Positions 2-21,598 of a stretch of DNA of 22,282 nt are shown piece by piece. Below the pieces are notes generated by a model. The model saw only the letters and a list, made by a program, of their open reading frames with translations. It made no database searches and was not told the origin of the DNA. Every line of letters begins with the position of its first letter. The first letter of the stretch is position 1. This DNA comes from a virus. A program made the translations under genes and the position numbers. The DNA is taken from IMG/VR virus record IMGVR_UViG_3300034954_001035, positions 1-22,282 of that record; one strand, given 5' to 3'.

Positions 2-37
2 CTAGAATTAGTTAACCCAGAACTTATACCAGAATGA
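2..37 (+). CDS. C-terminal end of an upstream gene (partial, unidentified)
   Basis: One frame is open from the window edge and reads LELVNPELIPE, then TGA at 35-37. Its stop overlaps the ATG of the next gene as ATGA, a common arrangement of translationally coupled phage genes. The next gene has no good Shine-Dalgarno sequence of its own, which fits coupling. Only eleven residues are visible, so no function can be given, and the frame could be open by chance. Confidence 0.4.
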   Translation, partial: LELVNPELIPE

Positions 38-552
38 GTCGTTTTATTGAATTATTGGAAGGAACCTTTGCTAATAAAATCCAAGCACAGTCCTATCCTA
101 CTCGTTATGCACACATTCGTGTTTCTCACCGCTTGATTGGTGAGAATCGTATTTACGGGGAACAAGCATACAACTATCTTCTAGAAAGACCATATCGACA
201 GTTTGTAATTGATGTGGTTCAAGAGGGTGAAGAGTATCGTCTTAAGAACTACGAACTTGCAAATGCTCTCCATTTTGCACAGTGTAGACGACTTGACGAA
301 ATCACAGACGATATGTTGACTTATCGCGAAGGTTGTGATATTATTATGAGAGAGACAGGACCTGATTCATACTTTGGTGGAACATCAACCTGTAACTGCA
401 CAGTCAACTGGAATGGAACTGAGACATATGTCCAGAATGAGGTAACACTCACTAAGGACGAGTATCATGTAGTTGACAAAGGATTACACATAGAGACACA
501 TCAGAAGATCTGGGGATCTGATTGGGGTGCTTTTAAATTCGTAAGGCAGTAA
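34..552 (+). CDS. cpeT: CpcT/CpeT-family phycobiliprotein chromophore lyase (phage type)
   Basis: The 172-residue product resembles the CpcT/CpeT family, whose cyanobacterial members attach bilins to cysteines of phycobiliprotein beta subunits. Family hallmarks are visible in order: PYRQFVIDV and a YRLKNYEL segment near residues 53-75, a FGGT turn with two nearby cysteines (CNC) near residues 114-122, WNGTETYV, and a C-terminal DKGLHIET followed by WGSDWGAFKF. Length and C-terminal pattern fit the family. The gene is a well-known auxiliary metabolic gene of T4-like cyanophages, presumed to act on the antenna of the infected cell. Whether the phage protein is a lyase or only a bilin carrier cannot be read from sequence. 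The start is set by the ATGA overlap with the upstream frame. It is followed 10 bases later by a tRNA. Confidence 0.88.
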   Translation: MSRFIELLEGTFANKIQAQSYPTRYAHIRVSHRLIGENRIYGEQAYNYLLERPYRQFVIDVVQEGEEYRLKNYELANALHFAQCRRLDEITDDMLTYREGCDIIMRETGPDSYFGGTSTCNCTVNWNGTETYVQNEVTLTKDEYHVVDKGLHIETHQKIWGSDWGAFKFVRQ

Positions 553-1504: not shown

Positions 1505-4500
1505 ATGCCATTAACACGTTTAGATAACCTTATTAGTTCAAAGACTGGTAAGTATCTTTATGTTTCGCCAGACGATTTTAACGCAACCGATGCGTTATCG
1601 AACCGAGGCAATTCACCAGTCACGCCGTTTAAGAGTATTCAGCGTGCATTTTTAGAAATCGCAAGGTATTCGTACCTTCCTGGATTTGGTAATGATAGAT
1701 TTGACCAGTTCAGCATCATGCTGATGCCAGGTATTCACTATATTGATAACCGCCCTGGTCTTGGTGATACTGCCAACATTGCTGAATTTGGTTTTGATCC
1801 AGCAAATAATGCTTGGACTGATAACAGCATTCTCGATATCTCTAACCCAGATAACGTTCTCTACAAATTTAACAACACTGAGGGTGGTGCAATCATCCCT
1901 AGAGGTTCTTCTCTTGTAGGTTATGACCTAAGAAGAACTGTTGTTCGTCCTCTATATGTTCCTGATCCTGCTGTAACTGAGCGTGAGATTCCTCGCTCCG
2001 CTATCTTTAATGTAACTGGTGGTTGTTACTTCTGGCAGTTCACCATCAAAGATGGTCAGACTACTTCTGAATCTCCTCTCTACAATTCCTCTGAAGGAAC
2101 TGGTAAAGTTTACTACGACCCAACTGACTTTACTAAACTAGCAGCACCTAACTATTCTCACCATAAACTAACTGTATTTGAATACGCAGACACAGAAGAG
2201 TTGTCTCTATTCTACAGAAAGATTTCTAAAGCATTCAAGCAGTATCAACCATCAATCGATCTGCCTGGAGAATTTGATTTTAGAGTTCAAGAGAACAGAA
2301 TTGTTGGACCTCTATCTGACTCTAGAGTTATTGAGAGTCTAAAGGTTACTGATAACTCTGCTGGTAATAATCCACAGATTCCTGCATCTACATCTGAAAT
2401 TGAAGTAACAACCAAGGTAGACCATGGTTATTTCCAAGGTCAATTTGTTGCTATTGCAAACACAGAGATCGATGATGTTCTTGAGGGTATCTTCCCAATT
2501 AAAGCAATCGATCAAAACGATGCTCGTAAGTTTACTTACGAAGTTCCGTTTGTTGCAACAGCAATTGGAACTAATATTCAGTCTGGAAAGATCCTAAATG
2601 CTGGATCCAGTCCTGCTTTGGGTCAGAATGCACAGACACTAGCAGAAGTTGACTCTGTTGAGTCTGCATCTCCATATGTCTTCAACGTGTCGATCAGATC
2701 CACTTGGGGTATTTGTGGTATCTGGGCAAATGGTCTGAAAGCCACTGGATTTAAATCCATGGTTATCGCTCAGTACACTGGTGTATCTCTACAGAAAGAT
2801 GATAGAGCATTCATCCGTTACGACGAGTATTCTAACACCTGGAACCAAGCGTCTCTAACTGACGCATTTGCTACGGTTCCTTATCACACCAAGGGTGATA
2901 GTTATTGGAAGGATGAGTGGAGAAACTTCCACGTTCGTGCATCTGAAGACGCATTCATCCAGAACGTTTCGATCTTCGCTGTTGGTTTCGCTGATCACTT
3001 CCTGATGGAAAGTGGTGGTGACATGTCGATCACCAACTCTAACTCCAACTTTGGTAACACATCTCTACACGCTATTGGTTTCAAAGGTTTCGCCTTTAAC
3101 CAAGATAAGGGTGGATACATTGATGCGATCATCCCACCAAAACAAGTTGTTGATACTGTAGCAAATACAGAAAGAATCAACTACTATACAATTGATGTTC
3201 AAGGAACTAGAGCAGGAAACAATACAACTAAATTGTTCCTCGGTTCTGATGAACTTAAGAATCCACTAGAGCGTCCTGCTGCAACAATCACTGGATTTAG
3301 AATTGGTGCTAAATCTAATGAAAAACTATATTTCAAAGGAGCAGCATCTTCTGTTGGTGACACTTACAACGTAGAACTAGAACCAACTGGATTTGTTAAG
3401 TATGTCGCTAAAGGCAGTCTTTTAACTCCAACAGGATTTGCTGCAAATAATAACTATGCTGACGCTGCTAATCTAATTGAAAGCAACCGTCGCATGATCC
3501 AAGAGGAAGTCTTCGGTTATATTCTAGAGAAGTATCCTAGACTCCAGAGCATTCCTTATGTCAACCCTGGTCTAAATCCTGCAGGTAACAGATACTTTGA
3601 TGGTCGTAATCTAATCCTTGCTAATAGACAGTGGATTATTGATGAATCATTTGCTGATACTACTAGAACATTTGGAACTACATTTATCAATGCCATCACC
3701 AATGGCGAAGAGAAGTGTAAGCGTGACATCGGACTTATTGTTGATGCTATTGCAGAAGACCTTAGAGATGGTGGTAACTCTAACATCATCGCTGCAACCA
3801 GAACATACTTTGACGGTGCTGGAAGTCCTCTAACTAATGGACTAGCAGGAGAAGAGCAGTATTCTGTATATGCATTCAACAGAGCTCGTGACTATTGTAA
3901 GAAAGCAATTGCAAACTTACTACCAATCAAAGCAGATCTATATGATCCAGATTCTAATAGCATCTACTTTAATGGTAATACACCTAAGTATCCTGATTTT
4001 GTACAAGGAAAAGGTAAGACAGGTTCTCAAGCAGAACTAGATGGTGACACAACTAATGGTGTAACCATTGACCTTGCAATCAAGCAAGATCCTGCTGGTA
4101 GAAATAAGGATGCACGTAATAGAATTGAGGCAAACAAAGAGTTTATCCTAGACGCAGCACTTGCTGAAGTAAGTGTATATCATCCTGACTTCTATATTCC
4201 TGGTGATACACAAACCAATGCACAGTCTAGACTTGCTGACGCATTCAGAATGATCCGTCGCAACTCTTCTGAGATTAGAGATAAGGCACTTGCATCTATT
4301 GCACTTAATCATCCTAACTTCTATATTGATGGGGATCAGCAGACTGATGAGGGATCAAGATACGCATCTGCATATCGTTTGATTTTAAATAACAGAGCTC
4401 AAATTGTTGATACTGCACTAGCAGAAATTACAGTTGGTCATCCTGATTTCTATATTCCTGGAGATCAGCAAACTGACGAGCGTTCTAGATATGCTGATGG

Positions 4501-7500
4501 TTATCGTTTGATCCAACAAAACAAATCTGACATCGTTGATGTCGCTTGGACAAACATGATTGCAACCTATCCTGCTGTTGCATCTACAGAACTCAAGTGT
4601 AAGCGTGATATCGGTATCTTTGTTGATGCTGTATCTCTTGACCTATTTGTTGGTGGTAATAAGTACGCTCGTAAGTTTGCACAAGAATACTTTGATGTAA
4701 ATGGAAATCCACTAGTCAATGGTTTAGTTGGAGAAGAAGCAGAAAGTATCTTGGCATTTAATAATGCTAAGGATCAAATGAAACTTGCTGTTGCAAACCA
4801 ACTTGCAATCACTGATCTAACAGTAACTGAGGGTCCTGCAACTTATGGTGGATCTGGTGGTAATGTTTCTAGAACTAACTCTGGTGCTTGTGCTGATGTT
4901 CAATCTGCTATTGAGACACTAACAAACATTATTACTACTCCAATTAATGATGGTAACCTCAATTCTCTACCTGCTGAAACACCTTACATTGCTGGTCCTG
5001 GTGAGGACAAGTGCCGTAGAGACATCGGTATCTTTGTTGACTCCCTAGCACTTGACCTATTCTGTAAGGGTAATGTCTACACATACAGATTTGCTGCTGA
5101 ATACTTCGAGAATGCAACTACACCTATTACTAATGGTGTTGTAGGTGAAGAAGCTCCAACAGTAACTGCTCTAAACAAAGCAGTTGAAATGATCAAGAAG
5201 GCGCTTACTAACCAACTCTACGAGAAGGATCTATTCAGAACTGCTGATAATGCACCTGGATCTGTATATGGTCAGGTATCTAAGGACTTTACACCACATG
5301 GTGCTATCTATGATCCTGCTACTGGATCCTTGCTACTTGACATTGCCAATCATGGTTTGAGTATTGGTGATCGTGTTAAGATTGCAGATAATGGACTAAC
5401 ATTTACCTGCACTCAGGATAATAATCAAACTAACCACACATATCCAAGAACAACTGACCCTGCATCTGGTCAATATCTAGAAATTACCGCTGCTGCAACT
5501 GACACGATTACTGTCAATGTTGGTGCATCTCCTGCAGGTCAACAGTATCCACATACATTTGTAAGTGCTCTTGCTGGTTGTGTAAACTTTGCTGGTAATA
5601 CTGCAAATCAAAATAATGCACAGAATGCTCTATGTTCTGATGTTCAGGCAGCTGCTGATACGCTAGGTGGTATTGCTACTACAATTATCACAGCAGGTAA
5701 CCTCAACTCTATGCCTATTGAGGTCAATTATGGAACTGGTAGAGGTCCTGGTGAGATCAAGTGTGCTCGTGACCTTGGTTACTTTATTGATGCTGTTTCT
5801 GTTGACATGTTCATTGCAGGTAACAGACACATCAGATCGTTTACCGAGCAATACTTTACCAACGCTACTACACCTCTAAGCAATGGTCTTGTAGGTGAAG
5901 AGGCAGAAAGTGTTACTGCTTTCAACACTGCTATTGCAGAAATGAAGAAAGCAATCACCAACCAGTTGTACTATAAGGATTTAACTGTTACTGCTGGTGA
6001 AGCAACTTATGGTGGTGGCGGCGGAACTATCGCTAACACCAATACTGGTGCTTGTGCTGATGTTCAGGCAACATTGCAAACTCTAGGTGAAATTGCTACT
6101 GATGCAATCACCAATGGTAACATTCAAGGTGGTATTTGGAGCACTCCTGTTAACGAGGGAGCATTCTTAGCAGGAGAAGCTAAGTGTCGCAGAGACCTTA
6201 AGATTGTTATTGAAGCAATCGCACAGGATCTTTGGTTCGGTGGTAATGAATACACAGTATCTGTAACTAAGGAATACTTCTATCAAAATCAACTAATCAG
6301 TAATGGTGTTGATAATGAGGTAGATCCTTCTATTACTGCATTCAAGCGTGCAGAAGAATTGATGCAGCGTGCTGCAAACAATGTATACTATGATCGCGAT
6401 CTTGACATCACATTAGATCAGACTGGTGATCCTCCAATTGTTGGTAACATTGAGTGTGATGCACATGATATGGTCATTGAGAACATTGACTTTATCGCTG
6501 CAGAAGCATATGAGCGTATGCTTGCTGCTTATCCTTCTTATACTCCATCCACAGGAAATACTGCACAAGACTGTAGAGATGACGTTGTTAGCGTCCTCAA
6601 AGAAGTCATGTGGGATGTTAAGTTTGGTGGTAACTATAAGACTTATGATGCTGCTAAGATCTATGTTGACAACTATGATTATAGAACTGGAACTGCAGTA
6701 TCTACATTCCTTGATCCTGAGCGTGACGAGGCAAGAAAAGTCTTCCTCGAAGCAAAGAACATTGCAATGCAAGTTATCAAGAACGAGACTGTAAGTGTCT
6801 CTGCTGGTAACTCTCTAACACAAGTCATTGATACTACAATCGTAGAAGATTGGGATGCAACTGAACTACTACCTAAGTGTGGTTCTGCTGTTGCTGCTGT
6901 TGATACTCTCATGGGTATTATCATCCAAGCAATTGGAACTGATGCTGGTGTTGGTAACTTGAATGGTATTACACGTACTGTTCCTGGAACTACATCTGAT
7001 CCTGCATGGAACACCTCTCTTAATATTACTGCTACCACTGCAACATCTATCACACTCGACGTTGGTGCATCTCCTGCAGGTCAGCAATATGCTCACCAGT
7101 TTGTAAGTGCAGCGACTGGAGCTGTTGTATCTGGTGGTAACTATCTCCATAGATTTGTTAGTGCTGCTGGTAACGCAGTAAGTATTCTAAATGGATCCCC
7201 ATTAACACCAATCAACGCAACTTATAATGCTGTATCTGGTGATATGGTATTGTATTTCGCAACTGCTCATGGTGTAACTACTTCTGATCAACTATCCATC
7301 GCAGCAAATTCTCTCACATTCAAGTGTGAGATGGATAACTTCACTGCTGATAAGACATATCCTCGTGCTACTGATCCAATCATTGGACAGAACATTGCTA
7401 TTACTGCCGTTACATCTACATCTATTACTGTTAATGTTGGCACATCTCCTCTAGTTGAGCATAATGTAACCAATGCAATTTACGATCCTGCATCTGGATC

Positions 7501-10500
7501 TCTTGCTCTAACTATTGGAGCACATACTCTAACCACTGGAACTGGAGTAAAACTCAAGAATGAGTCGCTATTGTTCAAGTGTGCTATGGATGATTACACG
7601 AGTGTTCGTGCGTATCCAAGAGCTGCAACAACATATCAACCTACAGCATATGATGGTGGTAATTGTTCTGATGTTCTTGCAACTATCAACTCTCTAACAG
7701 ACATCCTATGTGATTCACTGAAGGCAGGTAATCTTGATAATCTACCTGCAATCAGTAATGGTCTGTGGGATTGTGCAAACGTTAGATCTTCTATTGAAAA
7801 CCTATTCGACATTCTTACTGATGCAATTACTGATGGCACACTAGCAGGTCTACCAAACCTCAACAAAGGTGACTTCACTGTTAACAATGAGGCATCTAAG
7901 TGCTTCCGTGATGTTTCCTACATTGTTGATGCTTTGGTCAATGACCTTAGACTTGGTGGAAATATTAACAGTATCCAAGCAGGTGAAGCATACTATGTTG
8001 GTAACAGTCTTGAGTACATTGATGGAGAGAAGACTGAGACTCTAGATGCATGGAACTACGTCGGTCAGATGGCAATTGCTGCCATGAGAAACTGGGATGT
8101 TCTAGTTCAAAATTGCACCACAACATCTGGTTCTGCTATCGTTGATGTTAATGATACCAATGGAATTATCATTGGTATGTCTGTCAAAGAATATGGTTCT
8201 GGTGATTATACAAATGGTGTTCTTAACTCTAACGCAACACCTAACTACAGCACTATTCCTGACGGAGCATATGTCAAGCGTATTGTAAGTAACACTCAAA
8301 TCGAACTTGGTGCTAAGAGTTCTAGATTTGGTGAAGGTGTTCTAGTAAATGCTCTAGCAAATAGTTCTACTATTGATCTCTACTTTGAACTAGAGAATGG
8401 CGTATGGGCAGATACTCTACCACAGAAAGATCTAACTGTATCTCCTGACACCACAGTCTCTCCAACTAACAGAGAGTGTTCTGGAACTGCTAATGCCATC
8501 ATCAACTTGACTGGTGTAATTACTACCATCATCAACACTGGTGTTGGAACTGTTACTAGACAAGAGCAGACACTTAATACTGCACTCCTAGCAAACAGAG
8601 CAACCATCTTCACTATTGATACTGGTGGTGCTGCTTCTAACCCACACAACTTTGAGACTGGAACACCAGTCAGACTGGTTCCACGTCCACGTTGGGATAC
8701 AATCACTCAGACATATGTTGATGTTGATAAGCGTCTTGTCAGACTACCTAATGGATTTGAAACTAATAAAACTTACTATGTAATTGCTCCTGGAAGAACA
8801 ACACGACCAGAAAATTACGCTAACTCTAGTGTCTTTGACCAGACAGCTACGACAAAACTGATGCTTGCAACCTCTAAAGAGAATGCAGCAGCAGGTATTT
8901 ACATCTATGCTTCTGAAACTGAATCTGTAGATCCTGATGTTGAAATCGATCTATATCAGTTTGTCCTCGATGAGAAATATGATCTACACAACTATAAGTG
9001 TAGTGTTTCTGCAAATGTTAGTGGTGGTATTCAAACTGATACAGCACACATCTTTGATATTCCAGTTCAGAACCAAAAAGATCCTCAGATCGTATTCTTC
9101 CGTACAATTCCTGGATCTTCTGATAGATTGCCATTAGTATCTACTATTGATCAACAGACAACACCTTACATCTCTATCCAAAGTGGAGCAGATGCTGGTA
9201 GAATTGATCCTAACATTGAATTCTATGTAAGATATATTTCTCCAAAGGTATTCAGGATTTATAGAACTCCTAGTGATGCAGAGAATAATACTAACCCAAT
9301 TACATTTGCTGGTGGTCAGTCTGATCAGTTTAACGTATTCTGTAACAAGCGCACATCACCAATCCGCTTCGACCCAACATTTACCAATACTTCTACTTCT
9401 GATGGTAAGTGGTATATCAACTGTGTTGATGAGTCATCTCTCCAAACTAATATCTTTAACAGAATTGGTCTTGCTGATTATGCTGGTAAGACGAAGACCA
9501 CTGACATGTGGTATACTCGTCTGACAGATGATAGAGATAAGGAAGATAGAACATATAAACTACGTTATGTCATTCCTTCTTACTTAACTAACGTTAGAGA
9601 TCCTATCAATGGATTTGTTGTTAAGACAAGAACTGATGATACTCGTAGATTAGTTCCACAGAAGATCTTGCTAAAACCAGTAGCAGGAAATGTATATGGT
9701 GCTAGATTCACCAACCCTGCTAGAACTAATGAATTTATTGGATGGCAGACATCTGATTTCCCTGCAGGTCTTGATCCTGCTGTAGAAGAATCATATGATC
9801 CATACAAGAAACCAGGAATTACAGATCCTGCATTTGAATATAGAGCATTTGCTAAGTTTGCTTCTGGTGTTCAGGCAACAATTCAATCTGGTCGTTATAT
9901 TGAAGATACTCTAGATCCTAGCATCAAGTATCTAGAACTTACTGTATTTGACCATGCAATTGATGTTGTCAACTTTGCTGGTCTTAAGAATGAGATTCTA
10001 ACAACAGTTAAGATTACTGCACCACAAGGTGGAGACTTCGTTGTTGATAAAACAGCAATCACTAGCAATAATGAAGTTCAGTTCACTGGAAATTCTTCTG
10101 GTAATGCTAACATTCATGCTTATTATACTGTAAATGGTGATCACTACTTGATCATTAAGAATATCAATAGTGGTATCCTTGAGTATAGTCAGTACACTAA
10201 CACAAGATTTACTCAGGGTAATGTCTTTGCTGACATGCTAGAGGATCAGGACAGTGGCAAATCACTACCTCTGAAAACTCATATCAAGAAAAATTTCCCA
10301 GAGTATTATTACAAGCAAAACGGCGCTAACGTTTATACCATCACTCCTGGTGATAGAATTACTGATAGTGCTGGTATTGAATACTATGTTGATTCTGTTG
10401 AGGATACTGGAGTTATTGAGGATACATTCTATGTCTTTGCAACAGAGACTATCCAGAAACGTATTCCTGGTCAGCAAGATGGTGTATACTATCTAACATG

Positions 10501-13500
10501 CTTACGTGGTAATATTTCTCCATTCCCAACTGGTGCTGGTGTAATCAATAACTTTAAGAAGTTTAAGTTCTCTCAACCAGTTTCTAGACTATATCCTCTA
10601 AACTATAGAAATGATCCTCTCTGGTTTAAGAAGTCTGGAACCACGACATCTGAGAAAGCATATTATGGAACTCTGATCGATCCACCAGCAACATTCTCTG
10701 CTGCTGACAACTATATCCATGGTCTTGTAACAACTAACGATTACAAGAATTCTGTAACCAAGGAATTGGCAGAGGATCTAACCAAGCAACCTGCATTTAC
10801 CGTCAACAACTATACTCTTGTAGCACAAGAGGGTAATGCAACTTCTGGTTCTGAAGATCGTCGTATTCCAATCGCTGGTGATAGCACAGTTGTTACGGAT
10901 CAGCGTTACTACGTTGAACTTCGCAGACCATCTATTGCTCGTGCTGGTAACCACACGTTTGAATACCTTGGTTTCGGTCCTGGTAACTACTCTACTGGTC
11001 TCCCAGCGCGTCAGGAAGTCGTCCTAACACCTGAAGAGGACTTCTACGCACAAAGTAAGAAACAAGACGGTGGTATCGTCTTCTACACAGGTATTAACTC
11101 ACAAGGTGACCTGTATATCGGTAACAGAAGAATCAATGCTATCACTGGTGAAGAAACGTTTATCGATTCTGCCACATTGGATGATGATGGAGAAGAGGAT
11201 GATACCGTAGGAGGTCTCGTTACTACCTTCGATACACCTGTAACGTTCAATAAGAACATTACGGTTATCGGTGGTGACGGACAACTAACAAACACATTCG
11301 AGTCTCCAATTCTCCTCAACGTTGCTGACAATGATCTAACAGAGAATCGTTCTCCTCTAATCATTAGTTCCATTGTTTCTCCTGTTGATCCTGTAACTCA
11401 AACAGAGCAGGATGAAGGTCTTGATAGATCTGCATTCCTACCATTTGATGCAGGTGACATTACAATCGGTAAGAACAGAGTTAATGCTGCTGTATTTGGA
11501 TTCAACCCACGCGGTAGAGGTCAGAAATATCAGATTCAGACACATACAGTTGCTGGAGCTGCATCTAACCTAACTCCTAATCAGGATACGTTAATCTCTG
11601 CTGGTGGAACTAGAATTCAGTCTGGTCAGTTTGTAAACTACGGTGGAGTACTTTCAAAACCTGGAGATATTCTACTCAAGGGTCTTGAGGTTGGTAAGAC
11701 TGGTGGACTTGGTTGGATTTACACCAACTACTATATTCAGATTATTGCTGGTAGTAACCAAGCAATTTCTACAATTCAGTTTATCCCTGGAACTGGAATC
11801 ACATATGTTAAGTTGACATTTGTTGATGCTGGAACTGGATTAGATATTACTAATGCAAACCTTGGTATCACTAGTGGTGCTCAAATTAGACTTAATAACT
11901 ACTATCCAGATACCAGATTGAATGCTGTCTGGGATATCGTTGATTATCCTGGTGATGCATTCCAGACTACTGATAACTATCTCTACTTCCAAATCAATTT
12001 TGTTGTAGGCGCTGCAACTGAGTCTTGGCCAACTATTGTTTCCAACACTCCAACTGGCAATGATGATCCTACCATTGAATTCTCTGGTTCTGGTTCACAG
12101 TGGAAAGAGTTTGGTATCATTGGTGGTGAGGCACTTAGAACTGACACTGAATCAATTGGTGATTATAAGTTAGGTATTAACACTATTGCAAGAGCTGCAC
12201 ATGATGCATGTGAAACTGCATTTGTTTCTAATGAAACAGATCCTCGTGCTAACCTTGACGTTGTTGGCACAGCATTTATCAGTGGTAGATCAGTTCTTAA
12301 CTGGCTCAATGAAACTGGCACAACTAAGTCAGTTGTCCCAAGTGATAATGCATTCCTAGTTGGTGGTAACAGTGCGCTTCCAAATGAAAAAGCAGTATTC
12401 CGTGTTTCTACTTCTGCTGTAGATGGAACAGGTAAGATTGGTATTAATACCACTGTTGCTCAGATGAGCAGTCTTGCTACTGACATCGTAATGGTTGGTA
12501 CTACCACATTTGTTGGTAATTCTACAATCAATGGAAGTCTACAAATTCTAGTTGGACAGTTAGATACGACTAGCACAACTGTTGACCTGATGAATACACC
12601 TACTACGGTGAGATTCGCAATGGCAGCACAAACGCTAGAAGTTGCAAATGCTACCACAAATACTGGTAATAACGTTATCAATATTGCTAACTATAGCAAC
12701 AATTCAAGTTTCAGTCTTGGTAATGTTGCAGCAATTACTGAGTTCAATGTTCATAGAGGTTCTCAAACTGCAGATGTTAACATTGCAACAGTTGGTAATG
12801 CGGATGCATCTTACAATGCAACATTAAATCTTGGTGGTGCATTTGCTAACTCTGCTTCTATCACTAATATCAAGACTAGAAACATCTTCTTAGATGGTGA
12901 TGTCAACGTTGGTTCTGGACTAACTGCTGGTTCTGGTGTTGGTAAACTATATTCTCTCAACACTCAGTTTGACCTACTATCTGCTAGTGGTGGTCCATCT
13001 GTTGTTAAGTTCGCTGCTACTGCTGCAGACCTTACAATGGGTGCTCAAGGTGGAACAACTACCATCAATAACGCACTAACAGTTAAAGCAAGATCCGACT
13101 TCTTCGGTGACATGTTGCTAACTGGTGGTCTTAACGCTGGTGGTGTTGAGGTTGACAGAGGAGTCTTTGGAACAACTCCTGCCGCTCAGGCAGCAGGTGG
13201 TCTACCTTCTAACTTTAACATTGACCTTTACAGAAAGGTTGATATCAGTAAGACTCTTGATACTGGTGGTTTCGCAACTCTATCTGCAACAGAAGAGTTT
13301 ATTAGACTAAATGCACCAGTATTAGCAGGTCAGATTGCAATTGGTGATTATCTACTTCTTGACGAATCTGCAGCATTCACTGGATCTCCTGGTGGATATA
13401 CTCCAGATGAAGATAGATCTGAGATTGTAAGAGTTATTGAACTAACAAACCTTACTAACAGTGGTGATGCACAAGGTATTCGTGTTAAGGTAACTCGTGG

Positions 13501-14668
13501 TGTTGACGGTACAACTGCTCAAACACACCCTGACAATCTACCAATCTTCAAACTTAATAAGAGTGCTGACGTAAGTTATCTTCTTACGAGCATTACTAAT
13601 GTCGATACTCAGTTATCAACTGCTGAATTTGGTGGATCTCTATTGGTAGGTGATTTCCTCAGACTGAATGATGGAGAATATACAAAGGTCACTTCGATTA
13701 TTGCCTCTCAGACATCTATCAAGTCCCTGAAGGTTAATGATGGTGGTAACCCTGCTGTCCTAGCATTTAGTGTTGAATCTACTACTGGTAACACTTATAT
13801 CAGAGGTAATACTGAAGTTCATGCAGACTTGACACTAGTTGGTTCTGCAACAACTGGAGATCAGATGTTCACCATTAACAATGGTGAGTCTTCTCCAACA
13901 ACTGTATTTGATGTTGATAGTTCTGATGGTGACACTAGAATCCTTGGTGATTTGAGTGTTGGTGCTGGATTCAATAAACTAACAGTTGATGCATCTAATG
14001 GCAACACAGTATTGAATGGTGGTGACTTTACCATCTTTGATAGTGCAGGAACTGGACAGAAACTGAAACTCACCAATAATACTGGTGATCTAACAATCTC
14101 TGGTCTATACACAAGCACTGCTACAACTGGTGTTAACACATTTGCTAGTGATCTTCGCCTGAATGGTGGTGATCTACAAGTCTACTCTGGTAGTGATAAG
14201 AGATTCCAAGTTAATAACTCTGGAACGATCGATCTTGGTGGTGTTGACTACATGTTCGGTCCAACTGGTGCGAGACGCTGGGATTACTTCAATATCACAT
14301 CTGGTGATGGTGGAATCTTACAAGCTAACATTAACCTATTCGTCAATCCAAATGGTGATCTATATGTTAAACTGCCAACTAACCCAAGATCGGGTGATAT
14401 GGTAAGATTCATTGATCTTGGTGGTAACTTGAAGTACGACTTGAAACTTGTAATTCGTGCAGCAACTGGTGTTGCTATTCAAGGTGACTCTACTAACATC
14501 GCTGCTTCTGTAACTGGTGTTGACCTTACTAACCACAACGGTGGTGAATTGATTGTAACTACACCAAATGCCGCACTTGGACTAGTATATGCAGGTGCTC
14601 TAAATAATAATGGACAGTCTTCGGGAGTCCCAAGTTCTGCCCAAGGTTGGTGGTTGATGGAAATCTAA
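1505..14668 (+). CDS. Giant modular tail-fibre-like virion protein (4387 residues)
   Basis: This is probably a tail-fibre or fibre-like structural protein acting at adsorption. The N-terminus (residues 12-85) has the pattern YVSPDDFNATD, then SPVTPFKSIQRAF and IMLMPGIHYID, like the start of right-handed beta-helix (pectate-lyase-like) domains. Residues about 660-2350 hold repeated units: seven Cys-Arg-Asp modules, three to four tandem 43-residue units, and several YDP-type beta modules. Residues 2350-3200 form a long mixed section I cannot assign. From about 3200 the protein is beta-rich with short fibre-like repeats (GDLxV, LNGGDL). It ends GWWLMEI. I see no enzyme active site, signal peptide or membrane segment. 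It follows the late promoter with a weak Shine-Dalgarno (AGAGTAA). Its stop lies three bases before the next gene. Comparable very large fibre-like genes occur in cyanomyoviruses. The fibre role is inferred from neighbours and composition. Confidence 0.8.
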   Translation: MPLTRLDNLISSKTGKYLYVSPDDFNATDALSNRGNSPVTPFKSIQRAFLEIARYSYLPGFGNDRFDQFSIMLMPGIHYIDNRPGLGDTANIAEFGFDPANNAWTDNSILDISNPDNVLYKFNNTEGGAIIPRGSSLVGYDLRRTVVRPLYVPDPAVTEREIPRSAIFNVTGGCYFWQFTIKDGQTTSESPLYNSSEGTGKVYYDPTDFTKLAAPNYSHHKLTVFEYADTEELSLFYRKISKAFKQYQPSIDLPGEFDFRVQENRIVGPLSDSRVIESLKVTDNSAGNNPQIPASTSEIEVTTKVDHGYFQGQFVAIANTEIDDVLEGIFPIKAIDQNDARKFTYEVPFVATAIGTNIQSGKILNAGSSPALGQNAQTLAEVDSVESASPYVFNVSIRSTWGICGIWANGLKATGFKSMVIAQYTGVSLQKDDRAFIRYDEYSNTWNQASLTDAFATVPYHTKGDSYWKDEWRNFHVRASEDAFIQNVSIFAVGFADHFLMESGGDMSITNSNSNFGNTSLHAIGFKGFAFNQDKGGYIDAIIPPKQVVDTVANTERINYYTIDVQGTRAGNNTTKLFLGSDELKNPLERPAATITGFRIGAKSNEKLYFKGAASSVGDTYNVELEPTGFVKYVAKGSLLTPTGFAANNNYADAANLIESNRRMIQEEVFGYILEKYPRLQSIPYVNPGLNPAGNRYFDGRNLILANRQWIIDESFADTTRTFGTTFINAITNGEEKCKRDIGLIVDAIAEDLRDGGNSNIIAATRTYFDGAGSPLTNGLAGEEQYSVYAFNRARDYCKKAIANLLPIKADLYDPDSNSIYFNGNTPKYPDFVQGKGKTGSQAELDGDTTNGVTIDLAIKQDPAGRNKDARNRIEANKEFILDAALAEVSVYHPDFYIPGDTQTNAQSRLADAFRMIRRNSSEIRDKALASIALNHPNFYIDGDQQTDEGSRYASAYRLILNNRAQIVDTALAEITVGHPDFYIPGDQQTDERSRYADGYRLIQQNKSDIVDVAWTNMIATYPAVASTELKCKRDIGIFVDAVSLDLFVGGNKYARKFAQEYFDVNGNPLVNGLVGEEAESILAFNNAKDQMKLAVANQLAITDLTVTEGPATYGGSGGNVSRTNSGACADVQSAIETLTNIITTPINDGNLNSLPAETPYIAGPGEDKCRRDIGIFVDSLALDLFCKGNVYTYRFAAEYFENATTPITNGVVGEEAPTVTALNKAVEMIKKALTNQLYEKDLFRTADNAPGSVYGQVSKDFTPHGAIYDPATGSLLLDIANHGLSIGDRVKIADNGLTFTCTQDNNQTNHTYPRTTDPASGQYLEITAAATDTITVNVGASPAGQQYPHTFVSALAGCVNFAGNTANQNNAQNALCSDVQAAADTLGGIATTIITAGNLNSMPIEVNYGTGRGPGEIKCARDLGYFIDAVSVDMFIAGNRHIRSFTEQYFTNATTPLSNGLVGEEAESVTAFNTAIAEMKKAITNQLYYKDLTVTAGEATYGGGGGTIANTNTGACADVQATLQTLGEIATDAITNGNIQGGIWSTPVNEGAFLAGEAKCRRDLKIVIEAIAQDLWFGGNEYTVSVTKEYFYQNQLISNGVDNEVDPSITAFKRAEELMQRAANNVYYDRDLDITLDQTGDPPIVGNIECDAHDMVIENIDFIAAEAYERMLAAYPSYTPSTGNTAQDCRDDVVSVLKEVMWDVKFGGNYKTYDAAKIYVDNYDYRTGTAVSTFLDPERDEARKVFLEAKNIAMQVIKNETVSVSAGNSLTQVIDTTIVEDWDATELLPKCGSAVAAVDTLMGIIIQAIGTDAGVGNLNGITRTVPGTTSDPAWNTSLNITATTATSITLDVGASPAGQQYAHQFVSAATGAVVSGGNYLHRFVSAAGNAVSILNGSPLTPINATYNAVSGDMVLYFATAHGVTTSDQLSIAANSLTFKCEMDNFTADKTYPRATDPIIGQNIAITAVTSTSITVNVGTSPLVEHNVTNAIYDPASGSLALTIGAHTLTTGTGVKLKNESLLFKCAMDDYTSVRAYPRAATTYQPTAYDGGNCSDVLATINSLTDILCDSLKAGNLDNLPAISNGLWDCANVRSSIENLFDILTDAITDGTLAGLPNLNKGDFTVNNEASKCFRDVSYIVDALVNDLRLGGNINSIQAGEAYYVGNSLEYIDGEKTETLDAWNYVGQMAIAAMRNWDVLVQNCTTTSGSAIVDVNDTNGIIIGMSVKEYGSGDYTNGVLNSNATPNYSTIPDGAYVKRIVSNTQIELGAKSSRFGEGVLVNALANSSTIDLYFELENGVWADTLPQKDLTVSPDTTVSPTNRECSGTANAIINLTGVITTIINTGVGTVTRQEQTLNTALLANRATIFTIDTGGAASNPHNFETGTPVRLVPRPRWDTITQTYVDVDKRLVRLPNGFETNKTYYVIAPGRTTRPENYANSSVFDQTATTKLMLATSKENAAAGIYIYASETESVDPDVEIDLYQFVLDEKYDLHNYKCSVSANVSGGIQTDTAHIFDIPVQNQKDPQIVFFRTIPGSSDRLPLVSTIDQQTTPYISIQSGADAGRIDPNIEFYVRYISPKVFRIYRTPSDAENNTNPITFAGGQSDQFNVFCNKRTSPIRFDPTFTNTSTSDGKWYINCVDESSLQTNIFNRIGLADYAGKTKTTDMWYTRLTDDRDKEDRTYKLRYVIPSYLTNVRDPINGFVVKTRTDDTRRLVPQKILLKPVAGNVYGARFTNPARTNEFIGWQTSDFPAGLDPAVEESYDPYKKPGITDPAFEYRAFAKFASGVQATIQSGRYIEDTLDPSIKYLELTVFDHAIDVVNFAGLKNEILTTVKITAPQGGDFVVDKTAITSNNEVQFTGNSSGNANIHAYYTVNGDHYLIIKNINSGILEYSQYTNTRFTQGNVFADMLEDQDSGKSLPLKTHIKKNFPEYYYKQNGANVYTITPGDRITDSAGIEYYVDSVEDTGVIEDTFYVFATETIQKRIPGQQDGVYYLTCLRGNISPFPTGAGVINNFKKFKFSQPVSRLYPLNYRNDPLWFKKSGTTTSEKAYYGTLIDPPATFSAADNYIHGLVTTNDYKNSVTKELAEDLTKQPAFTVNNYTLVAQEGNATSGSEDRRIPIAGDSTVVTDQRYYVELRRPSIARAGNHTFEYLGFGPGNYSTGLPARQEVVLTPEEDFYAQSKKQDGGIVFYTGINSQGDLYIGNRRINAITGEETFIDSATLDDDGEEDDTVGGLVTTFDTPVTFNKNITVIGGDGQLTNTFESPILLNVADNDLTENRSPLIISSIVSPVDPVTQTEQDEGLDRSAFLPFDAGDITIGKNRVNAAVFGFNPRGRGQKYQIQTHTVAGAASNLTPNQDTLISAGGTRIQSGQFVNYGGVLSKPGDILLKGLEVGKTGGLGWIYTNYYIQIIAGSNQAISTIQFIPGTGITYVKLTFVDAGTGLDITNANLGITSGAQIRLNNYYPDTRLNAVWDIVDYPGDAFQTTDNYLYFQINFVVGAATESWPTIVSNTPTGNDDPTIEFSGSGSQWKEFGIIGGEALRTDTESIGDYKLGINTIARAAHDACETAFVSNETDPRANLDVVGTAFISGRSVLNWLNETGTTKSVVPSDNAFLVGGNSALPNEKAVFRVSTSAVDGTGKIGINTTVAQMSSLATDIVMVGTTTFVGNSTINGSLQILVGQLDTTSTTVDLMNTPTTVRFAMAAQTLEVANATTNTGNNVINIANYSNNSSFSLGNVAAITEFNVHRGSQTADVNIATVGNADASYNATLNLGGAFANSASITNIKTRNIFLDGDVNVGSGLTAGSGVGKLYSLNTQFDLLSASGGPSVVKFAATAADLTMGAQGGTTTINNALTVKARSDFFGDMLLTGGLNAGGVEVDRGVFGTTPAAQAAGGLPSNFNIDLYRKVDISKTLDTGGFATLSATEEFIRLNAPVLAGQIAIGDYLLLDESAAFTGSPGGYTPDEDRSEIVRVIELTNLTNSGDAQGIRVKVTRGVDGTTAQTHPDNLPIFKLNKSADVSYLLTSITNVDTQLSTAEFGGSLLVGDFLRLNDGEYTKVTSIIASQTSIKSLKVNDGGNPAVLAFSVESTTGNTYIRGNTEVHADLTLVGSATTGDQMFTINNGESSPTTVFDVDSSDGDTRILGDLSVGAGFNKLTVDASNGNTVLNGGDFTIFDSAGTGQKLKLTNNTGDLTISGLYTSTATTGVNTFASDLRLNGGDLQVYSGSDKRFQVNNSGTIDLGGVDYMFGPTGARRWDYFNITSGDGGILQANINLFVNPNGDLYVKLPTNPRSGDMVRFIDLGGNLKYDLKLVIRAATGVAIQGDSTNIAASVTGVDLTNHNGGELIVTTPNAALGLVYAGALNNNGQSSGVPSSAQGWWLMEI
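4112..4570 (+). repeat. Tandem 43-residue repeats within the giant fibre
   Basis: Three full units and a partial fourth with a 129-base period. The core HPDFYIPGD (HPNFYIDGD in the second unit) begins at 4181, 4310 and 4439. Each unit continues QTxxxSRxADAYRLI, then a helix with N and I before ALAEI. A looser, older relative of the helix (NLIESNRRMIQEEVF and NLILANRQWIIDESF) lies upstream near 3470-3650. Confidence 0.85.
5300..7630 (+). repeat. YDP-type beta modules within the giant fibre
   Basis: A module with the order IYDPxTGSLxL, LTFKC or LTFTC, YPRxTDP, ITVNVGxSP begins at 5300, 7214 and 7472 (the last lacks its second half). A copy of only the second half begins at 7019. The first copy sits inside one Cys-Arg-Asp unit, between its helical part and its CSDVQ segment. 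The pattern suggests shuffling of whole domains. Confidence 0.75.
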
Positions 14669-20962: not shown

Positions 20963-21598
20963 ATGCAACCAATTAAACCTCTTGAGTTGATGAAAGATCC
21001 AAATCTCACCAAGAGTGAGTTTAAGGATTTTGTTGGTGTGTGGGAAAACTTTATGCCTGCATATCTCTGTGAGAAGATCATCAATCATTTTGAGCATGAA
21101 CTAGGAAACTCATCCATCGTTGACGGTAAGATGATGGATGGAGAACAGCAATTTGGATCACAAGGAAAGTTAGGTCGTGATGACTTATCTCTTCTACTCA
21201 ATATCACTAGTACAGAACTAGCAGGAGCTGTAAATCAGTATTTACAAGCAACTGTAATGCATTACATTGACAAATACTCTCAGTTGCAATCTTGTAGGTT
21301 ATTTTCTACAGACTTAAAACTACAGAAAACAGAACCAGAGGGTGGATATCATGTATGGCACTATGAATCTAGTGACTACTCTCACTGTAACAGAGAGTTA
21401 GTATGGATTCTCTATCTTAATGATATGCCAGAAAATGAGGGAGAGACAGAGTTTTTACATCAACGTCGTCGTATTAGACCAACACAAGGAACTATTACTA
21501 TCTGGCCAGCAGGTTTGACACACGTTCATCGTGGACTAACAGTTTATTCTCAGGATAAATATATACTGACAGGATGGTATCTGCAATCTCCAAGGTAA
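20963..21598 (+). CDS. 2-oxoglutarate/Fe(II)-dependent oxygenase (prolyl-4-hydroxylase-like)
   Basis: The 211-residue protein has the signature of the 2OG-Fe(II) oxygenase superfamily in its C-terminal half. The proximal metal pair is H133-Y-E135 (HxE, where HxD is usual). Then come a strand-rich stretch (VWILYLND, EGETEFLHQ, TQGTITIWPAG), the distal His189 in HVHRG, and Lys199 in KYILTGW. Lys199 lies ten residues after His189, where the residue binding the 2OG carboxylate is expected. Members hydroxylate proline, lysine or small molecules using O2. Such genes are frequent near fibre genes in T4-like cyanophages, but their substrates are mostly unknown. The neighbour is a Gly/Pro-containing adhesin, so a virion-protein substrate is possible but unproven. 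The N-terminal half (VWENFMPAYLCEKIINHFE) is typical of these enzymes. Confidence 0.85.
   Translation: MQPIKPLELMKDPNLTKSEFKDFVGVWENFMPAYLCEKIINHFEHELGNSSIVDGKMMDGEQQFGSQGKLGRDDLSLLLNITSTELAGAVNQYLQATVMHYIDKYSQLQSCRLFSTDLKLQKTEPEGGYHVWHYESSDYSHCNRELVWILYLNDMPENEGETEFLHQRRRIRPTQGTITIWPAGLTHVHRGLTVYSQDKYILTGWYLQSPR

Follow-up and report, generated by a model that had tools for sequence, protein, structure and literature searches.

What is the alpha-helical block, unusual for a phage fibre, that lies inside the giant tail-fibre gene of a marine cyanophage? The DNA analysed here (the window) is a 22,282-nt virus record, IMGVR_UViG_3300034954_001035, and is a fragment of a T4-like marine cyanophage. 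Its giant tail-fibre gene (1505..14668, + strand) is one uninterrupted frame of 4,387 amino acids (aa), and the block at 3470-8110 corresponds to aa 656-2202 of this frame. A sequence-only reading had described the block as about 1500 residues of helical Cys-[KR]-RD and CADVQ modules with 43-residue tandem repeats, and had found no described domain that fitted. A described family does fit. Profile searches, hhalign comparisons, and AlphaFold models searched with Foldseek all led to the phycobiliproteins (PF00502), and the units of the block are almost certainly homologous to these members of the bilin-binding globin superfamily.

The starting lead was a marginal match of the whole fibre to PF00502 (Phycobilisome), which scored 24.2 bits against a cut-off of 22.2; its best-scoring stretch, aa 1651-1699, lies in the sixth unit of the block. 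The phage set comprised 557 core copies, taken from 102 reading frames of the window and of IMG/VR loci, and the comparison set comprised 173 phycobiliproteins from cyanobacterial genomes. Without secondary structure, hhalign aligned 108 phage units that include the A-B hairpin with the 173 phycobiliproteins over 105 columns (helices A-G), with a P of 1.7e-10 and a probability of 96.9%. Mixed units gave a P of 1e-9 and units of the C[AS]D type 5e-6, the latter over helix E only, whereas the reversed phage frames used as a control gave no match to phycobiliproteins. When a profile of 104 phage copies was searched against 177,635 distinct PDB sequences, all 60 matches listed were phycobiliproteins (best E 6.5e-5), and in the alignment the phage Cys coincided with phycocyanin Cys84. 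In six whole cyanobacterial genomes, this profile again picked out the phycobiliproteins; the best matches read there were all of this family, with a phycoerythrin-alpha-like protein at the top. PF00502 itself was matched by 34 of the 104 single copies (E < 0.1; best 1.3e-6), and the next family by 3. A PF00502 search of genomes gave no match on the window because single units lie below the detection limit of the family. The whole fibre, searched as a single sequence, gave no match in the PDB. One unit searched alone against the PDB matched the designed helical repeat 8ugc (E 0.0011); this candidate was rejected as compositional, the match lying within alanine-rich repeats.

AlphaFold was run without templates on phage-only alignments. 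The models of aa 925-1250 and aa 985-1116 were helical with high confidence (pLDDT 88.0 and 91.5), which bears out the helical character noted before. In Foldseek searches against the PDB, phycobiliproteins made up 49 and 50 of the best 50 matches, respectively, with probabilities of 0.99-1.00 and TM-scores of up to 0.73 on the query. The domain modelled alone is compact and all-helical with a globin-like fold, and its five helices correspond to A, B, E, F, and G. In the whole PDB, phycobiliproteins are the best match of the phage units both in sequence and in fold. The matches among the viral models of BFVD came from Synechococcus phages and uncultured Caudovirales; they are tail or structural proteins, and none is named phycobiliprotein.

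Phycobiliproteins often bind their chromophore through a CXRD motif, in which the Cys is covalently linked to ring A and the other two residues hydrogen-bond the bilin (PMC10151467). The phage Cys-x-Arg-Asp aligns on this attachment motif (C84-x-R86-D87); six of the seven units in the window carry CxRD and one carries CxDD. Besides helices A-B-E-F-G and the place of C-x-R-D, the two groups have in common the distance of 14 residues from the motif to GG, with CxRD-x14-GG spacing in 256 of 263 phage units and 82 of 82 phycobiliproteins. Among 104 non-redundant phage units, the Cys is conserved in 96%, the Asp in 98%, and the Arg in 79% (Asp in 15%), and the units are otherwise about 25% identical on average per column. 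The earlier reading was right that the block may be a binding array, and the Cys that had been noticed sits at the position of chromophore attachment. The sequence suggests that the fibre may be pigmented or light-sensitive.

The architecture of the block proved helical and modular, as first described, but only about 1,070 residues belong to the helical part, which consists of seven units of about 135 aa and three 43-aa repeats, and two non-helical-looking inserts lie between them. The described modules are real. CxRD occurs six times in the block (C738, C1032, C1170, C1420, C1561, C2133) against a shuffled mean of 0.075 and a maximum of 2 (2,000 shuffles), and C[AS]D four times against 0.35. 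Cysteine reaches 13.6 per 1000 residues in the block and 2.6 in the remainder of the protein. All units lie on the + strand and were located by profile match. Unit 1 (aa 686-821, 3560..3967) carries CKRD at Cys738. Unit 2 (aa 985-1115, 4457..4849), the domain modelled alone, carries CKRD at Cys1032, whose codon (4598..4600) aligns on phycocyanin alpha Cys84; the equivalent codons of the other units start at 3716, 5012, 5762, 6185, 6572, and 7901. Unit 3 (aa 1119-1253, 4859..5263), also covered by the model, has CADVQ (Cys1129) and CRRD (Cys1170). Unit 4 (aa 1366-1503, 5600..6013) has CSDVQ (Cys1377) and CARD (Cys1420), and unit 5 (aa 1507-1643, 6023..6433) has CADVQ (Cys1517) and CRRD (Cys1561). 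In unit 6 (aa 1642-1787, 6428..6865) the motif is CRDD (Cys1690), with Asp in place of Arg, and unit 7 (aa 2084-2214, 7754..8146) carries CFRD (Cys2133).

The 43-residue tandem repeats (aa 868-996, 4106..4492, + strand) were likewise substantiated: they are identical at 20-26 of 43 positions, and the autocorrelation was 59/157 at offset 43 against 4-15 elsewhere. TRF found no tandem repeats in the DNA, and the repeats show in the protein only. The model has two helices per repeat, and we read the repeats as putative duplications, three in number, of the first helical hairpin (helix A-B) of the domain. Both inserts (aa 1254-1365, 5264..5599; aa 1788-2083, 6866..7753; + strand) look non-helical by sequence and gave no Pfam match. 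They carry TVNVG...HTFVSA and YPRxTDP motifs, repeated in the second insert as TVNVG, HxFVSA, and YPR, and in part match PHROG 1276 (unknown function). The second insert ends with a CSDV-type segment (Cys2054). The inserts are probably a second unnamed repeat domain of cyanophage fibres, beta-rich as judged by eye.

The gene that holds the block belongs to the giant short-tail-fibre proteins of T4-like cyanophages. It matches PHROG 4527 ('short tail fiber protein', 4,723 bits), 529, and 5342, and its orthologues in S-WAM2, S-RSM4, S-PM2, and Syn1 are annotated as short tail fibre or tail protein. The gene order around the fibre is closely similar in these four phages, and the fibre is followed by a collar-domain short tail fibre and collar genes, as in S-RSM4, S-PM2, and Syn1. 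Upstream on the same strand lies cpeT (34..552, +), of the T-type bilin-lyase family (PF06206, E 9.4e-40); genes for tRNA-Thr, -Ala, and -Asn and an HNH endonuclease (1050-1400, directly upstream of the fibre) were also found there. Two collar-domain proteins and a glycine-rich one with the same domain are encoded downstream, as are a 2OG-Fe(II) oxygenase (20963-21598, beyond the collar genes) and a tail assembly chaperone. In S-PM2 and Syn1, a 2OG-Fe(II) oxygenase gene is instead immediately upstream of the fibre. The S-PM2 RefSeq record (NC_006820 168556-173383; locus L188 8557-13384) places 16 tRNA genes inside the giant fibre frame. ARAGORN found no tRNAs inside that frame and located them between the hub genes and the fibre; the annotations probably have shifted coordinates in the record.

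The domain is widespread in cyanophages. A tblastn search of 50,697 phage records matched cyanophages, apart from one unclassified marine virus record. A profile search of 28 complete cyanophage genomes, picked partly for having matches, showed 3-13 copies in 25 of them, located in genes for fibres and for the gp7 baseplate protein. The search found no units in P-SSM2, S-SM2, and S-SSM7, the remaining three genomes, nor in the podovirus P-SSP7. S-PM2 carries nine units. The units of P-SSM4 (NC_006884 70000-76500; locus L245) naturally lack the Cys and offer a useful contrast for its role. The five units of P-HM2 all have the Cys and are divided between a gp7 baseplate protein (4,454 aa) and a tail fibre (3,677 aa). 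Two P-HM2 genes (locus L216, 2319-15683 and 26551-33822) are annotated as gp7 baseplate wedge, encoding 4,454 and 2,423 aa, and these proteins are several times the size of T4 gp7. Cyanophage gp7 is expanded by inserted domains.

The helical block is an array of seven phycobiliprotein-homologous domains, each retaining helices A, B, E, F, and G, strung along a giant T4-like fibre. We propose that a host-type phycobiliprotein or a related bilin-binding globin was acquired and then multiplied, and that the domains were retained as rigid helical modules of the fibre and of the gp7 baseplate protein. Most units may still attach a linear tetrapyrrole, phycoerythrobilin (PEB) or a similar bilin, to the CxRD Cys. 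The bilin would be supplied by host or phage synthesis, and its attachment may be helped by phage CpeT, whose gene adjoins the fibre gene in this lineage. We speculate that the bilin could make the fibre or baseplate light-responsive, or quench damage by light or reactive oxygen species, and that light would then favour adsorption. Taken together, an array of seven phycobiliprotein-like domains with this origin, bilin attachment, and role in light is a somewhat probable account. Covalent bilin binding at the CxRD of most units, with host or phage supply and help from CpeT, is a tentative proposal from the motif, nearly as likely as not.

Other explanations of the block have to be weighed against this proposal. 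The idea of a helical solenoid or an enzyme-like array of new fold could point to the tandem 43-aa repeats, but hairpin repeats are confined to aa 868-996 and the remainder consists of complete globin-like domains. The discrete globin-type domains in the high-confidence models, matching phycobiliproteins, refute it for the modelled units and leave it very improbable overall. The sequence-only reading had also seen recurring pairs of conserved cysteines that might pair or bind metal. The CxRD Cys does recur, but it is the sole Cys in 33 of the 104 non-redundant units, so pairs are not general, and neither disulphides nor metal binding can be the general reason for the conserved Cys; a disulphide-only rule was rejected on this count. 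That the pairs are disulphides stabilising the fibre outside the cell, with the C[AS]D Cys bonded to the CxRD Cys, agrees with the finding that all 217 units with the upstream Cys have the CxRD Cys and that the upstream Cys is absent from all 8 units without the CxRD Cys. We nevertheless consider it unlikely, as the Cys lies exactly at the chromophore Cys of the homologues. In C[AS]D-type units, the two Cys may form a disulphide or hold a chromophore linked at both, and a disulphide and a bilin can coexist; doubly linked bilins are known in phycoerythrin. A stronger competitor, which we regard as plausible but short of probable, is that the domains are purely structural, chromophore-free helical spacers derived from an old host domain, with CxRD kept to cap or stabilise helix E. 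Large copy number, variable length, and the replacement of the motif Arg by Asp noted above are consistent with such spacers, and further invariant residues (N, Y, GG) look structural. The retention of Cys and Asp at such low overall identity, single-Cys units included, and the bilin-lyase relative encoded next to the fibre argue for more than a spacer. Several observations also weigh against our proposal. The N-terminal helices X and Y are missing from the phage domain, as apparently is the C-terminal helix H, a loss that also speaks for spacers; the alignment covers only positions 32-141 of the 159 of the phycobiliprotein profile, and some 10 residues fewer make up the B-E loop next to the chromophore. 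Most single copies score under the PF00502 cut-off. The Foldseek E-values by themselves are weak (0.015-0.3), and the argument therefore depends on sequence, motif, and fold pointing the same way. The motif reads C-x-D-D or C-x-T-D in some copies or lineages. In P-SSM4, which encodes CpeT and a bilin reductase, all three units have lost the Cys; this likewise speaks for spacers. Other residues (GGN, EYF, N) are equally invariant, and the conservation of C and D alone is therefore no proof of a pigment role. No chromophore has been seen, and homology, fold, and motif by themselves do not show bilin binding.

The cpeT gene precedes the fibre in the window, S-WAM2, S-PM2, Syn1, and S-RSM4. Of the 20 distinct IMG/VR module-bearing genes that have 3 kb or more of sequence before them, 15 have cpeT no further than 2 kb upstream. 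CpeT is present in 23 of 25 module-bearing phages and in none of 3 module-less ones (Fisher ~0.003, by hand). On the gp23 tree, the five phages that deviate all fall in one clade, so this co-occurrence is phylogenetically confounded; it was dropped as independent evidence and is suggestive only. In B23 and DSL-LC03, the domains occur without CpeT. P-HM1 CpeT reportedly binds PEB tightly, with no transfer to host phycobiliprotein. One 156-kb viral contig (the IMG/VR record behind L011, G007) carries two separate cpeT-like genes, at 2240-2668 and 108907-109329. It is about as likely as not that cpeT beside the fibre serves host phycoerythrin only, as a classical auxiliary metabolic gene, with an incidental position. 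In P-HM1 and Syn33, cpeT is in the hub / tail-fibre region, apart from the module genes elsewhere in the genome, and in Syn33 it adjoins CP12, another metabolic gene. The residue that T-type lyases are known to serve is Cys153 of beta subunits rather than Cys84 (PMC10452541), which counts against CpeT as a Cys84-type lyase. A role confined to the host sits less easily with other reports: the role of phage cpeT has been called unresolved because cpeESR is missing (PMC3037559), and cpeT, ho, and a bilin reductase, the benefit of which is unclear, occur in the Prochlorococcus phages P-HM1 and P-HM2, whose hosts lack standard phycobilisomes (PMC2984593).

The proposed role in light bears on adsorption. 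S-PM2 adsorption is said to be light-dependent, and P-SSM2, which has no units, reportedly adsorbs in the dark. In darkness, P-HM2 is unable to adsorb, while P-SSP7 does infect (PMC7112961); a photoreceptor in the virion fits these two data points, the former having five Cys-bearing units and the latter none. Host photosynthetic energy explains the light dependence equally well. A light-sensing role of the bilin in light-dependent adsorption is speculative and doubtful. It seems similarly improbable that fibres and baseplates act as pigmented photoreceptors, with bilins loaded by phage CpeT, joined in some phages by heme oxygenase and PebS/PcyA, and with adsorption gated by the light absorbed.

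The units differ from phycobiliproteins in their setting. Phycobiliproteins such as phycocyanin, phycoerythrin, and allophycocyanin form light-harvesting alpha/beta rings, whereas the phage units are encoded in many tandem copies within one virion fibre chain, without an alpha/beta partner or known chromophore, and the missing helices X and Y are those of the alpha/beta interface. Bilin biosynthesis-associated globins (BBAGs) and photoglobins also belong to the bilin-binding globin superfamily outside light harvesting, some of them with CXRD, and in E. coli BBAGs need no lyase to bind bilins (PMC10151467). Judged from their descriptions, they are, unlike the phage units, free-standing cellular proteins near bilin reductases. 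In the giant short-tail-fibre (T4-GC 734) and gp7 baseplate wedge proteins of cyanomyoviruses, the former including the window gene itself, the helical modules are annotated only as structural or tail protein, and the domain is unnamed in the records and papers searched. No earlier description of phycobiliprotein-like domains in phage virions was found in the literature searched, which covered few subscription journals; the finding is likely new.

A previously nameless building block, recurring in fibre and baseplate proteins of most cyanomyoviruses examined, is thus identified. The phage genes ho1, pebS, pcyA, and cpeT have no settled purpose, above all in Prochlorococcus phages (PMC3037559, PMC2984593), and a phycobiliprotein-like domain in the virion is a possible target for them that has apparently not been considered before. 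The domain is also a candidate molecule for light-dependent cyanophage adsorption. A photoreceptor role, if true, would explain why some cyanophages adsorb in a light-dependent way and why Prochlorococcus phages carry bilin genes, which has been a puzzle.

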